NCBI GenBank assembly: GCA_947599835.1
Contig: CANQFQ010000003.1
Location: 62,001-126,000, forward strand
Direction of reading: 5' to 3'
DNA length: 64,000 nucleotides
Origin: an uncultured Bacilli bacterium
GTDB taxonomy: Bacteria; Bacillota_I; Bacilli_A; RFN20; CAG-631
This document shows positions 37,089 through 64,000 of this stretch, piece by piece. Made by a program: the position numbers and the translations under genes. Below the pieces are notes generated by a model. It searched no databases. It had not been told where the DNA came from and saw nothing but the letters and a program-made list of their open reading frames with translations. How positions within the stretch are numbered: position 1 is the first letter of the stretch; every line of letters starts with the position of its first letter.

Positions 37089-38738
37089 TTAATCATTCAC
37101 TTCTTTAAAACAACTTCCTCCAATAAATTCTCTCAATAAAGAATTACATGGAACATAGGTATCATCAATATCCTTAAAATATTTTAGAAACTTAATTAAG
37201 CGGTTTGCTTGTATTGCATAAGCACTATCATCTGGAATTTCTCTCAGTGATGGCAAAGCATATTTTTTCATCACACATAATTCATAAGTTAATTCTGAAT
37301 TAAATACAAAATTAGCTCCTTCTTGATGAGGGTAAATCCATTTAAATTCTCCCTTACGAACGGAAGGCCACATTGCAATGGTTTTTTCTGCAGAGGTATT
37401 CCGATATTTTTTATCCCTAACAATACGCCTTAATAATCGAATTTCAGTAAGACTGATAGGGTTATGATTATCCAAATTAATTTGAATTTGTGGTGCAATA
37501 TAAATTTTAAACTTTTGGTGTTTAGGAATCGAAGACGTTAAAATGTCGTTTAAAGCATGAATTCCTTCAATAATAATGGGTTGCTTAGGCTCTATTTTAC
37601 ATCTTTCTCCTTGTTCTCTTTCTCCTGTTTTAAAATTGAATTTAGGTAATATAATTTCTTTTCCTTGAATCAATGAAAGCATATGATGATTAAACAATTC
37701 AATATCTAAGGCTTCAATATGTTCTAAATCTGGCATTCCATTTTCATCTAAAGGAGCAGCCGACTTTGATAAATAATAATCATCGATTGAAATTCTAACA
37801 GGATGAATTCCTCTAGACATTAACTCAACTCTTAAGCGATTAGAAAAAGTCGTTTTTCCGCTTGAAGATGGACCGGCAATCGCAATAAGACGAATATTTT
37901 CAATATCTTTTTCAATCGTTTCGCCTAATTCACACAACATATTATTATGTTTGGTTTCGCACATATTAATAAAATCAATGGTGGTATCCTCTTTCACATG
38001 GCGATTCATTTTAGCAACTGTATCCGCTTCACAAATTTTGGCCCAACCATGAGCTAATTTTAATGTTTTTCCAAACATTGAAGCTTCTTCAAATTCAGGA
38101 ATCGTTCCCCCCATTTCAGAACGTGGATATTGGATAATAAAACCAGGGTTATAATGTCTTAATTGAAATTGATTTAAATAACCTGTTGAAGGTACCATAT
38201 ATCCAAACATATAATTCATATATCCATCACATTCATACATATGCACATTTTTTTCCGGACGGAATTGTAAAATATCGATTTTATCTTGTGCATGTTGTTG
38301 CTTATAAATTTCTAAAGCTTCTTCTTTGGAAAGTATTTTTCTTGTTAATGGATAATCTTCTGCTACGATTTTTTTCATTTCGTTCGATAATTCCGTAACA
38401 AAATGACTGTCTAATGTTAAATTGGAATTTAACAATTGGCAAAAAATCGAACGAGAAACGTTATAGCTTAATCGTACATCATATTCTGGATGTAATCGAC
38501 TAATCGCCATCACAACCAAATAACGCAAACTTGTTTCATATACTTTTGTTGCATCCGAATTAGTTAAATCTAATAGTTCTACTTCACAATCATAACTTAA
38601 TTCATAGGTTAATTCTCTTAAACGATTATTGACCTTTGCTACATAATATTTTTTTTGTTCTTTTTCTGGAATTAACGACAAAATTGGCGTTTTATTCGTT
38701 AATTGAAATGTTTTGTTCAGCATTTTTACCGTAATCAT
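37089..38738 (-). CDS. TGS-domain nucleoside kinase (uridine kinase/phosphoribulokinase family)
   Basis: This 549-residue fusion has an N-terminal TGS-like domain (about 1-60), a region like the second N-terminal (editing-type) domain of threonyl-tRNA synthetase (about 65-265, with YPRSEMGGTIPEFE), and a C-terminal P-loop kinase domain. GPSSSGKTTFSNRL (about 291) is Walker A, followed by ISIDDYYLSK, PKFNFKTGER and PIIIEGIHALN, all typical of uridine kinase/phosphoribulokinase. Such TGS-kinase fusions are known in anaerobes such as Thermotoga and Clostridia. They probably phosphorylate a nucleoside in the cytoplasm. A TTG or ATG start elsewhere is not suggested. Confidence 0.88.
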   Translation of the reverse strand: MITVKMLNKTFQLTNKTPILSLIPEKEQKKYYVAKVNNRLRELTYELSYDCEVELLDLTNSDATKVYETSLRYLVVMAISRLHPEYDVRLSYNVSRSIFCQLLNSNLTLDSHFVTELSNEMKKIVAEDYPLTRKILSKEEALEIYKQQHAQDKIDILQFRPEKNVHMYECDGYMNYMFGYMVPSTGYLNQFQLRHYNPGFIIQYPRSEMGGTIPEFEEASMFGKTLKLAHGWAKICEADTVAKMNRHVKEDTTIDFINMCETKHNNMLCELGETIEKDIENIRLIAIAGPSSSGKTTFSNRLRVELMSRGIHPVRISIDDYYLSKSAAPLDENGMPDLEHIEALDIELFNHHMLSLIQGKEIILPKFNFKTGEREQGERCKIEPKQPIIIEGIHALNDILTSSIPKHQKFKIYIAPQIQINLDNHNPISLTEIRLLRRIVRDKKYRNTSAEKTIAMWPSVRKGEFKWIYPHQEGANFVFNSELTYELCVMKKYALPSLREIPDDSAYAIQANRLIKFLKYFKDIDDTYVPCNSLLREFIGGSCFKEVND

Positions 38739-38915: not shown

Positions 38916-38943
38916 TTTACTTTGTTTAATAAAAAAATATGAT
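38916..38943 (+). promoter_or_regulatory. Promoter of the DUF362-ECF-kinase operon
   Basis: TTTACT (38916-38921) and TATGAT (38938-38943), 16-bp spacing, followed by AAGGGGG and the ATG at 38972. No riboswitch fold was recognised in the short leader. Confidence 0.6.
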
Positions 38944-38971: not shown

Positions 38972-39844
38972 ATGAAATCAAAAGTTTATTTTACTAGAAC
39001 CATATCACCTGAAGCTGTACTCAAGTTATATCAACATTTAAATGTTTGTTTAAAAGGAAATGTTGCCATTAAATTACATTCTGGCGAACCTGGAAATCAA
39101 AATTTCTTAGGTCCTGATTTCTTTAAACCTACAATTGATTTTGTAAAAGGAACCGTAGTGGAATGTAATACGGCTTATGATGGCGAAAGAAATACAACAG
39201 AAAAACATTTAAAAACATTTAAAAAACATCATTGGACAGATTATTTCACCGTTGATTTGATGGATGCAGAAGGTCCTGATATGATACTAGATATACCTAA
39301 TGGAAAAGTAATTAAGAAAAATTATGTTGGAAAAAATCTTCAAAAATATGATTCAATGCTCGTTTTATCTCATTTTAAAGGTCATCCTATGGGAGGTTAT
39401 GGCGGCGCTTTAAAACAATTATCTATTGGCGTAGCTTCTTCTTATGGCAAAGCTTTTATTCATGGTGCTGGAGAACCAGGAAAAATTTGGGATGCAGATC
39501 ATGATTTATTTTTAGAATCTATGGCTGATGCTGCAAGTAGTGTGGTTGACTACTTTAAAGGAAAAATGGCCTTTGTAAATGTAATGAAAAATATGTCCGT
39601 GGATTGCGATTGTTGTGCCACAGCAGAAGATCCTTGCATGGCCGATATTGGCATCTTAGCCTCACTTGATCCTGTTGCAATTGACAAAGCATGTTTGGAT
39701 TTAGTTTATCAATCTAAAGATAAAGGAAAAGATCATTTAATTGAAAGAATTGAAAGTAGACATGGCATTTTAACCATTGAAGCCGCTGCAAAATTGAATA
39801 TTGGCAGCATGGATTATGAATTGGAGGAAATAGAAGTTGACTAA
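38972..39844 (+). CDS. DUF362 family protein
   Basis: This 290-residue protein belongs to the DUF362 family: KVYFTRTISPEAVLKLY at the start, VAIKLHSGEPGNQNFL, ECNTAYDGERNTT, LVLSHFKGHPMGGYGGALKQL and a final DPVAIDKACLDLVY. The family often carries a ferredoxin domain. Here only the core is present, but it has DCDCCATAEDPC, a compact group of four cysteines that could bind a metal or iron-sulfur cluster. The function is unknown. It overlaps the next gene by eight bases and so is tightly tied to an ECF transporter S component and a kinase. Confidence 0.85.
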   Translation: MKSKVYFTRTISPEAVLKLYQHLNVCLKGNVAIKLHSGEPGNQNFLGPDFFKPTIDFVKGTVVECNTAYDGERNTTEKHLKTFKKHHWTDYFTVDLMDAEGPDMILDIPNGKVIKKNYVGKNLQKYDSMLVLSHFKGHPMGGYGGALKQLSIGVASSYGKAFIHGAGEPGKIWDADHDLFLESMADAASSVVDYFKGKMAFVNVMKNMSVDCDCCATAEDPCMADIGILASLDPVAIDKACLDLVYQSKDKGKDHLIERIESRHGILTIEAAAKLNIGSMDYELEEIEVD

Positions 39845-40439
39845 GCAATCTTTAACCATTAATAAAATTTGTTTGGCTGCTATGTTTTTATGCCTAGGTT
39901 GGTTACTTCCCTTCATCACTGCTCAAAATGTTCAGTTGGGAAATGCGATTTCTCCTATGCATATCGCTATTTATTTATGCGGCTTCATTTTAGGTCCTTT
40001 ATATGGCGCACTGATTGGTTTGATTACGCCTTTAACGCGTTTTTTAATTTTTGGTATGCCACCGATTTATCCAACAGCTGTTTGTATGATGTTTGAACTT
40101 GCTTGTTATGGTTTTGTCAGTGGTTTAGTCTTTCATCTTTTGTATAAAAAAACAAAATTAAATGAAATTTTAGTTATTTTTATAGCCATGCTTTCAGCAA
40201 TTTTGTTAGGACGTTGTGTAAATGGTATTGTGCATTGGCTCGTTGGCATTATTGATACCAAAAACGCTTTTACCTTTAAAATGTTTCTTTCCATTTCTTT
40301 TGTTGTTGCTTGGCCTGGAATTATTTTGCATTTAATTTTAGTTCCTTCTTTAATTATTTTATTAAAACGTTCTAATTTATTAGATAAATTCCTTCCTGTA
40401 AGAAATTACGAACTAAGAAAAAATGACCAAAACAGATGA
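39837..40439 (+). CDS. ECF transporter substrate-binding (S) component
   Basis: This 200-residue membrane protein has about six helices and the ECF S-component pattern: an N-terminal helix with small residues (CLAAMFLCLGWLLPF), GFILGPLYGALIGLITPLTR, FGMPPIYPTAVCMMFELACYGF and a long hydrophobic C-half. It starts with TTG, nine bases after GGAGG, inside the DUF362 gene. S components bind a vitamin or nucleobase and share a common EcfA/EcfA'/EcfT module, which is not in the window. The substrate cannot be assigned; the kinase encoded next may act on it. Confidence 0.82.
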   Translation: MTKQSLTINKICLAAMFLCLGWLLPFITAQNVQLGNAISPMHIAIYLCGFILGPLYGALIGLITPLTRFLIFGMPPIYPTAVCMMFELACYGFVSGLVFHLLYKKTKLNEILVIFIAMLSAILLGRCVNGIVHWLVGIIDTKNAFTFKMFLSISFVVAWPGIILHLILVPSLIILLKRSNLLDKFLPVRNYELRKNDQNR

Positions 40440-40992
40440 AATTATCGATAAAATCAATTGTTTATTACAAAAAAAGAATTTTGTAGTTGTTGCCATTGAT
40501 GGTAAATGCGGAAGTGGTAAAACCACTTTTGCAGAGCAATTAAAAAATCATTTTAACGCTTCTATTATCCATTGTGATGATTTTTATTTACCACTTGAGA
40601 AAAGAACATCTGCTAGATATCAAGAAGCAGGTGGAAATATAGATTATGAGCGTTTTAAAACAGAAATTATCGATCATTTACATTCGGATTCCGTCATTAT
40701 TTATCAACGATTAGATTGCCAAACAATGAAACTAAAAAAACCAACCAAATTACATAAGAAAAAAATGCTCATTATCGAAGGCTCATATGCGTTACATCCA
40801 TATTTTCAAAAATATTATGATTTATCTATTTTTATGGATATTGACGCTTCTTTACAATTAAAAAGACTTAAAAGTAGAGAATCGGAAAAAAATTTTGCAG
40901 CCTTTATTCAATTTTGGATACCATTAGAAAACCATTATTTTGAAAGCTATCAAATTAAAAATAAAGCAGATTACATTTTAACAATAACCTAA
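40423..40992 (+). CDS. Uridine kinase-like P-loop kinase
   Basis: This 189-residue protein has Walker A DGKCGSGKTT, the acidic substrate motif IIHCDDFYLP, NIDYERF, and LIIEGSYALHPYF before a lid-type region with Arg/Glu. This is the short uridine kinase/nicotinamide riboside kinase-like group common in Firmicutes. It overlaps the S-component gene by 17 bases, so its product is likely to phosphorylate and trap what that protein imports, such as a nucleoside or vitamin. That coupling is inference. A strong terminator follows. Confidence 0.85.
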   Translation: MTKTDEIIDKINCLLQKKNFVVVAIDGKCGSGKTTFAEQLKNHFNASIIHCDDFYLPLEKRTSARYQEAGGNIDYERFKTEIIDHLHSDSVIIYQRLDCQTMKLKKPTKLHKKKMLIIEGSYALHPYFQKYYDLSIFMDIDASLQLKRLKSRESEKNFAAFIQFWIPLENHYFESYQIKNKADYILTIT

Positions 40993-41020
40993 AAAAGGGA
41001 TTAAATTTATCCCTTTTTTT
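40992..41020. terminator. Bidirectional terminator
   Basis: AAAAAGGGAT (40992-41001) pairs with ATCCCTTTTT (41009-41018), 7-nt loop, with T-runs in both directions. It ends the kinase operon and probably the rsmG transcript. Confidence 0.85.
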
Positions 41021-61836: not shown

Positions 61837-64000
61837 TTTCTAAACCAGAATGTTTAACACGGTATTCGACTTCTTGTCGTTTTGCATTGTTAAAACGATC
61901 TAACGTTCCTACTAAATACCCTGTAATTCGACGAATCCTTTCAAATTTAACATCGCCTTCTTGACGATGACATTTTGGACATTCGTTATTAATAATTCCA
62001 TTAAAACCACAAATAGGATCTCGATCTACTGGATGATTTACACTACCATAACCAATTCCTTTTTCTTTCATGTGGCGAATAATTTTTTCAAAAGCTTTTG
62101 GATTTTTAGCAATATCTCCATCCACTTCAACATAAGAAATGTGACCTGCATTCGTTAAAGCGTGATATGGCGCTTCACGATTAATTTTTTCAAAAGCAGA
62201 AATATTGTAATATACAGGAATATGGAAAGAGTTCGTATAGAAATCTTTATCTGTAACGCCTTCAATAATACCAAATTTTTGTTTGTCTATTTTTACAAAC
62301 CGACCGGATAACCCTTCTGCTGGTGTAGCTAATAGAGAGAAATTCAAACCATATTTTTCAGCCGCTTGATCACATCTTTCACGCATGTGGGTAATAATTT
62401 TAATGCCCATTTCTTGTGCTTCATCACTTTCGCCATGGTGATGTCCTGTTAAAACTTTTAAAGCTTCAGCCAGACCAATAAAACCAATGGATAAAGTACC
62501 ATGTTTGATGACTTCTGATATTTCATCATCAAATTTTAATTTTTCACTATCAATCCAAACACCTTGACCCATCAAAAATGGAAAATTATACACTCTTTTT
62601 TTAGATTGAATATAAAATCTTTCTAATAATTGATCAATTACTAAATCGATTAAACGATCAATTTCTTTAATAAAAGCATTGTATTTTCTCGTTTTCAAAG
62701 CCGCTCTTGGAAGATTAATCGAAGTAAAACTAAGATTGCCTCTTCCCGTTACTATTTGTTTGGATGGATCATACACATTTCCAATGACCCGTGTACGACA
62801 ACCCATATAAGCAATTTCAGTATTATAATCTCCTGGTTTATAATATTGTAAATTAAATGGTGCATCAATAAAAGAATAATTAGGGAATAATCTCTTTCCA
62901 GATACAACTAAAGATTTTTTAAATAAATCATAGTTTTTATCTTGTGGATTATAGTTGATGCCTTCTTTTATCTTAAAAATTTGAATTGGAAAAATTGGTG
63001 TTTCGCCACCGCCAAGACCATCTGAAGTAGCATCCAACAAACAATCCATTGCCATTCTTCCTTCTTCACTCGTATCCGTTCCATAATTTAATGAAGAAAA
63101 AGGAACTTGAGCTCCAGCTCTAGAATGCATTGTATTTAAGTTACACAATAAAGCTTCCATCGCTTGATAAGTTGCTTTTCTTGTTTCATTGTAACTATTT
63201 TTGGTCGTTTCTTCAATTATTTTATCCACACTTTTTTCTTCTAGATTAAATTTGTTTTTAATAGCCTCTTTAACTAAAGCATCAACGCTAGGATTTAACA
63301 TTGCTACTTTAACATTATTTTTTTCTTCCACATCCATCACTAATTCTTTGACTGCATCTTCACATTCATTACCGGTCATAAATTCAATGTATTTTGCTAA
63401 ATTCGCGATGAATAATTTATGATACGTTTTTCGAACACCTAAAGCCATTGCATAATCAAAGTTAGGTACACTTTGTCCACCGTGTTGATCGTTTTGATTG
63501 GCTTGAATGGCAATACATGCTAAAGCACTATAACTACGAATGTCATTGGGTTCACGAAGATAACCATTTCCTGTTGAAAAACCATCCTTAAACAACTTAA
63601 TCAAATCAATTTGACAGCAAGTCATAGTTAAAGAATAGAAATCTAAATCATGAATATGAATTTCGCCTTCTTGATGCGCTTTAGAAAAACGAGGTTCAAT
63701 TAAATAGTTCAAATAAAAACTTTTAGCTGATTCGCTGCCATATTTTAACATCGTTCCCATGGCAGTATCACCATTAATATTTGCGTTTTCTCTTTTTGCG
63801 TCATTGTCTTTCGAAGATTTAAAAGTGATTTCTTTGAGGGTTTGCATTAAACGACTATTGGTTTCTCTAATTCTAGTTCTTTCTGCACGATATAAAATAT
63901 AAGATTTTGCAATTTCGCTACAGCCTTGACGAATTAAAGTTTTTTCAACTATATCTTGAATTTCCTCTACTGAAGGAATCGATTTTTTATATGTTTTATT
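61820..64000 (-). CDS. nrdD: Anaerobic ribonucleoside-triphosphate reductase NrdD (5' end outside window)
   Basis: The frame stays open to the window edge, so the start is missing; 726 residues are visible. The N-terminal visible part (KTYKKSIPSVEEIQDIVEKT...GCSEIAKSYILYRAERTR) is the end of an ATP-cone regulatory domain, so translation does not begin at the internal ATG at 63847. The catalytic domain has INGDTAMGTMLKYGSESAKS and the active-site Cys region MTCCQIDL. ICGFNG...NECPKC is the zinc site, and RRITGYLVGTLDRFN the glycyl-radical loop near the C-terminus. It makes dNTPs under anaerobiosis with formate as reductant. nrdG overlaps its end. Confidence 0.95.
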   Translation of the reverse strand, partial: NKTYKKSIPSVEEIQDIVEKTLIRQGCSEIAKSYILYRAERTRIRETNSRLMQTLKEITFKSSKDNDAKRENANINGDTAMGTMLKYGSESAKSFYLNYLIEPRFSKAHQEGEIHIHDLDFYSLTMTCCQIDLIKLFKDGFSTGNGYLREPNDIRSYSALACIAIQANQNDQHGGQSVPNFDYAMALGVRKTYHKLFIANLAKYIEFMTGNECEDAVKELVMDVEEKNNVKVAMLNPSVDALVKEAIKNKFNLEEKSVDKIIEETTKNSYNETRKATYQAMEALLCNLNTMHSRAGAQVPFSSLNYGTDTSEEGRMAMDCLLDATSDGLGGGETPIFPIQIFKIKEGINYNPQDKNYDLFKKSLVVSGKRLFPNYSFIDAPFNLQYYKPGDYNTEIAYMGCRTRVIGNVYDPSKQIVTGRGNLSFTSINLPRAALKTRKYNAFIKEIDRLIDLVIDQLLERFYIQSKKRVYNFPFLMGQGVWIDSEKLKFDDEISEVIKHGTLSIGFIGLAEALKVLTGHHHGESDEAQEMGIKIITHMRERCDQAAEKYGLNFSLLATPAEGLSGRFVKIDKQKFGIIEGVTDKDFYTNSFHIPVYYNISAFEKINREAPYHALTNAGHISYVEVDGDIAKNPKAFEKIIRHMKEKGIGYGSVNHPVDRDPICGFNGIINNECPKCHRQEGDVKFERIRRITGYLVGTLDRFNNAKRQEVEYRVKHSGLENVDSN

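Follow-up and report, generated by a model that had tools for sequence, protein, structure and literature searches.

What do an uptake component, a small kinase and a protein of unknown function do together in a single, tightly overlapping operon? The question arose from a 64,000-nucleotide stretch of DNA (positions 62,001 to 126,000 of contig CANQFQ010000003.1, assembly GCA_947599835.1; the window from here on) of an uncultured Bacilli-like bacterium, whose genome assembly comprises 1.40 Mb in 27 contigs and is 93% complete. An earlier note, made from the sequence alone, had pointed out three genes overlapping by 8 and 17 bp, and had inferred obligate co-expression, the import and trapping of a nucleoside or vitamin by the uptake component and the kinase, and perhaps a redox or metal-dependent step for the third partner, a DUF362 protein with a CDCC...C cluster. 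The arrangement it described proved to be real. The DUF362 gene spans 38972-39844 (+ strand, 290 aa, ATG start), the ECF transporter S component 39837-40439 (+, 200 aa, with a TTG start preceded by GGAGG at a fitting distance) and the P-loop kinase 40423-40992 (+, 189 aa, ATG start), the overlaps being 8 and 17 bp, as the note had it. Pfam searches assigned the three products to DUF362 (PF04015, whole model, 162.7 bits with a gathering score of 24), to the ECF S components (PF12822, 53.8 bits, 30.7) and to the phosphoribulokinase (PRK)/uridine kinase family (PF00485, 35.3 bits, 22). A terminator-like hairpin (40991-41019, 11 pairs plus a T run), usable from both sides, marks the end of the transcription unit. 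A weak promoter-like match precedes DUF362 (38916-38943, +), but promoter-like sites were no more frequent than expected by chance (14 against a mean of 13.1). Control by a riboswitch was also considered and dropped, since no Rfam element was found at E <= 1. The neighbouring genes, named by eye as a divergent TGS-type nucleoside kinase, rsmG, mnmG and proS, are housekeeping or unrelated, and a second PRK-family kinase, with an N-terminal threonyl-tRNA-synthetase-like part (37089-38738), lies divergently just upstream of the operon.

The first question to answer was whether this arrangement is more than chance. In a sister species (loci L006/L003; loci, genomes, genera and families of the comparison set are denoted L, G, g and f, respectively) the three proteins are about 91, 81 and 66% identical and the genes keep the same order and the same two overlaps. 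Among 196 genomes of the order, 32 contain this type of S component, which is adjacent or fused to the kinase in 18 of them and adjacent to DUF362 in 6 (G000, G003, G026, G090, G132 and G148, although in the last three the S component is of a divergent type and the kinase is missing). Among 395 genomes of the class, 80 contain the S component, and of the 65 outside the order, 19 have a kinase within 1.5 kb (15 on the same strand) and 10 have DUF362 within 1.5 kb, all 10 on the same strand. Gene order, however, varies: DUF362-S-kinase (the window, L031, L104 and L108), DUF362 followed by an S-kinase fusion (L116), S-kinase-DUF362 (L118), DUF362 followed by a kinase fused to an additional domain and then S (L186), S-DUF362-aldo/keto reductase (L187), DUF362-S alone (L112, L114 and L120) and DUF362-CMD-like-S (L117). 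In genus g35 (L041-L043), DUF362, a divergent S component, a nitroreductase and a DegV-like gene stand in a row, without the kinase. S and kinase are fused into one protein twice (L029 and L116). Shuffled orders and fusions argue for a functional link rather than for inherited synteny. In these scans, ORFs lying mostly inside longer ones were not displayed.

The second question concerned the cargo. The predicted fold of the 200-residue protein agrees with its Pfam assignment, the top 22 rows of the structural comparison being S or related ECF membrane components (Z 11.2-16.7). However, top rows for pantothenate, riboflavin, biotin, HmpT-type, folate and thiamine components tie, so that the fold does not discriminate between substrates. 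By profile, the protein is nearest to RibU/FolT-type components, yet no family of known substrate passes its cut-off (the folate family, TIGR04518, reaches 28.5 of 60 bits). Therefore, the condition that the note had set for its own refutation, an S component clearly belonging to a family whose known substrate needs no phosphorylation, was not fulfilled. As for the kinase, profile searches matched uridine kinase (2e-12) and nicotinamide riboside kinase (1.8e-9), although it scores only 43.7 bits against the Udk model (TIGR00235, cut-off 220.3); a nucleoside-type ligand thus fits the kinase. The interpretation offered in the note was supported in part: co-expression and a single system for uptake and phosphorylation are upheld, whereas the redox or metal role argued from the CDCC...C cluster (39605-39637, +; C212, C214, C215 and C222) is not supported. 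Among 64 distinct DUF362 proteins (one copy of each, restricted to those of at least 230 aa, that is, 64 of 65), C212 is present in 64 and C214 in 63, but C215 only in 42 and C222 only in 41, and the motif is thus not a conserved cluster.

A clue to the third partner came from its apparent distant relationship to the nickel-dependent lactate racemase LarA, which carries a nickel-pincer nucleotide (NPN) made by LarB, LarC and LarE. DUF362 and LarA share the Pfam clan CL0471 (PMC11770544), so that the DUF362 protein is less unexplained than the note had thought. In L. plantarum LarA (chain 8ezf), the catalytic histidine, the NPN lysine and the nickel histidine fall at H174, K184 and H200 (their roles are in part described in PMC11770544), and in the window protein H138 (codon 39383-39385), K148 (39413-39415) and H164 (39461-39463) show the same spacing of 10 and 16 residues. 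H138 and K148 are found in 64 of the 64 DUF362 proteins and H164 in 63. The direct comparison is, however, marginal. The best PDB sequences hit by the window protein are LarA-like NPN enzymes, but only at E 0.11 (0.04 with a profile), and hhalign places K148 on the NPN lysine with E 3e-4 and a probability of only 40%; the same low-scoring alignment places a non-His column opposite the second catalytic histidine of LarA, H108, and no equivalent of it is evident. A template-free model built from 4 sequences is poor (pLDDT 60) and Foldseek found nothing at E <= 0.001 (E above 0.06), while a second structural alignment put LarA-family entries in all of its first eight rows, with weak scores (Z 4.6-5.7). 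In addition, the protein is shorter than LarA (about 290 against about 430 aa) and has no match to Lar_N (PF09861), nor does any other protein of its genome.

The strongest evidence from genomic context was the finding, in two other families, of DUF362 as the first gene of DUF362-larC-larB-larE operons, which contain the NPN biosynthesis genes. These operons occur in genus g6 of family f5 (G054, L046; G124, L196; with a broken DUF362 remnant at the same place in G007, L045) and in genus g152 of family f27 (G335, L126; G487, L128), and their LarB, LarC and LarE proteins score over the NCBIfam cut-offs. Together they represent 5 of the 21 LarC-positive genomes found, and in two more (G485 and G520) DUF362 lies about 4.2 kb from larC. 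A phylum-wide LarC search for DUF362 operons outside the class returned only genomes already seen. None of the 7 LarC genomes of the order has LarA over cut-off, so that DUF362 is the LarA-clan protein beside larCBE. In 14 named control genomes, DUF362 is present in 5, LarC in 6 and LarA in 2; Synechococcus elongatus and Haloferax volcanii have LarC and DUF362 without LarA, while Corynebacterium glutamicum and Methanocaldococcus jannaschii have LarC with neither, and Bacteroides ihuae has DUF362 without LarC. These observations bear on the statement, made in mBio in 2024 (PMC11796402), that about 15% of the genomes analysed, many of them cyanobacteria, have larB, larE and larC but no larA and must hold unknown NPN-binding proteins; a similar remark has been made for Haloferax (PMC8305020). 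DUF362, as first gene of a larCBE operon and with the NPN-binding residues, is a concrete and testable candidate.

However, the window genome shows no LarC and no LarE over cut-off, which raised the question of where such a cofactor would come from. All 16 LarA genomes of the order likewise lack LarC and over-cut-off LarE, and in 12 of the 14 that belong to genus g25 the S component and kinase lie 1.5-1.8 kb upstream of LarA, on the same strand. At L009 (7402-12306) and relatives, in genomes that lack LarC and LarE, the LarA-like gene is part of an operon with triosephosphate-isomerase-like, NagB-like and ABC transporter genes. In a tree of S components (53 rows, restricted to segments of at least 140 aa, with identical ones kept once), the LarA-linked S proteins (98/99) and the DUF362-linked S of the window group in one 22-row clade (92/91). 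One S lineage serving two different LarA-clan enzymes is better explained by a common cofactor than by a common substrate. A relative of the kinase overlaps an aldo/keto reductase gene that, in turn, overlaps a LarC gene (L185). A DUF3842 gene stands next to larE in G485 and next to S in G434 and G375 (L184, 6607-7014; L195, 3520-3936; L110). A domain of about 155 aa without a Pfam match is fused to the kinase (L186, 2452-3444; L151), fused to DUF362 (L056) or encoded on its own just 5' of DUF362 (L057, 983-1489). Finally, DUF362 is present in 30 of 32 S-bearing against 51 of 164 S-negative genomes of the order (p 1.6e-11; 24/32 against 47/164, p 1.3e-6, when 10 genomes with weak, long-type or broken matches are left out), although these tests are not corrected for kinship.

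All these observations could be integrated in a model, the best reading of the evidence although tentative as a whole, with an NPN-type nucleoside as the most likely cargo, in which the three genes form a salvage-and-use module for an NPN-type cofactor. In this model, the S component, with a presumed shared ECF energising module of the cell, would take up the dephosphorylated NPN nucleoside, or a close derivative, released by other microbes; the kinase would put the 5'-phosphate back on and trap it, its kinship with uridine and nicotinamide riboside kinases fitting a pyridinium nucleoside; and the nucleotide would then be held by the DUF362 protein through K148 and H164, with H138 as acid/base, to catalyze a hydride-transfer isomerisation or redox step on some substrate. 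What the analysis establishes is the gene linkage, the fusions, the shared residues, the DUF362-larCBE operons of other genomes and the absence of LarC and of over-cut-off LarE from this 93% complete genome. In contrast, uptake, phosphorylation, NPN binding and catalysis are all inferred: that DUF362 binds NPN is considered somewhat more likely than not, whereas that NPN nucleoside is what S and the kinase handle is rather less than an even chance. A number of facts stand against the model. Of the 81 DUF362 genomes of the order, 48 have neither this S type nor LarC, so that either another source exists or the cofactor is not NPN. In genus g152, the S-bearing genomes G394, G423 and G512 have neither DUF362 nor the kinase, which indicates that S can serve something else and ruled out a clean swap of larCBE for S and kinase within that genus, which had initially looked likely. 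S and LarC are not anticorrelated in the order (1/32 against 6/164, p 1), G332 has larBCE and also the kinase relative, and four LarA genomes (G086, G155, G139 and G145) lack S; since S and kinase also stand without LarA, the idea of LarA as a necessary partner of S was abandoned. Moreover, in genus g29 eight S proteins (L033-L040) are fused not to a kinase but to a class I SAM methyltransferase, in a protein of roughly 385 aa usually encoded beside an rpsD-like gene (L032 is cut off inside the same region). As the relation of DUF362 to LarA rests on clan membership, a short motif and marginal profile scores, what is proposed is that the protein works like a LarA-clan NPN enzyme fed by salvage, and not that it is a LarA.

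In its boldest form, the proposal would be that DUF362 proteins are the non-LarA NPN enzymes predicted in genomes with larB, larC and larE but no larA, and that the S component and PRK-family kinase allow bacteria without LarB, LarC and LarE to acquire a ready-made organometallic nickel cofactor from their neighbours. This is possible, though less likely than not. If right, it would turn a Pfam domain of unknown function into an enzyme family and show that an organometallic cofactor is shared between microbes like a vitamin. The clan relationship was already known, and NCBIfam holds a model for a long DUF362 type named only after a locus tag (NF052623); however, no paper in the literature searched, which included few subscription papers, was seen to link DUF362 to NPN beyond clan membership or to describe NPN salvage, and four papers on NPN examined for the word salvage gave no such route. 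A transporter plus kinase that take up and phosphorylate a cofactor precursor nucleoside are described for alpha-ribazole in Firmicutes (CblT-CblS, PMC6461909), for a different cofactor. Queuosine salvage (QrtT, QueK and QueL), which also uses a PF12822 S component in a nucleoside-type pathway (PMC11130926), was the first identity considered, on the basis of an ECF S component, a kinase and a supposed Fe-S protein. It was discarded because QueK is described there as a nucleoside hydrolase, QueL is a radical SAM enzyme, and neither domain was found in the trio.

Among the alternatives, the one that survives best, although unlikely, is that of the note: ordinary nucleoside or vitamin salvage, in which S and kinase import and trap, for example, nicotinamide or nicotinate riboside or another B-vitamin form, DUF362 being an accessory step. 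The profile hits of the kinase and of S described above are compatible with it, but it explains neither the DUF362-larCBE operons nor the position of S and kinase beside LarA, and no family of known substrate was recognized for S. Somewhat less likely is the import of a substrate, a small hydroxy-acid or sugar-like compound that would be phosphorylated by the kinase and isomerised by DUF362, with NPN obtained some other way or replaced. In its favor, PRK-family kinases also include sugar- and glycerate-type kinases (fructokinase was hit at 1.8e-5 and glycerate kinase at E 0.0024), LarA relatives act on hydroxy acids (PMC7583248) and aldo/keto reductases recur near DUF362 and the kinase; against it, the same S lineage sits with DUF362 or with a LarA-like gene of a different operon, LarC and over-cut-off LarE are missing from the window genome, and ECF S components mostly carry micronutrients. 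Least likely is that DUF362 kept a LarA-like scaffold but binds another group, such as an Fe-S cluster held by C65, C212 and C241 (present in 61, 64 and 59 of 64 proteins), with S and kinase supplying an unrelated cofactor, for although many DUF362 genomes lack LarC and longer DUF362 proteins carry ferredoxin domains, the near-invariance of H138, K148 and H164 and the larCBE operons in two families speak against it.

One of these long DUF362 proteins with ferredoxin domains (L188, 3777-5565) stands divergently next to a relative of the kinase, and in another protein (L145, 1489-2547) the kinase domain is preceded by a region that reads, by eye, like a 2H phosphoesterase (LigT-like). A search of viral contigs gave two DUF362 loci and one S locus, which were used only for a structure alignment, in the residue count and as one row of the S tree; a DUF362-type gene (L199, 4142-4861) lies on a 274-kb viral contig of IMG/VR.
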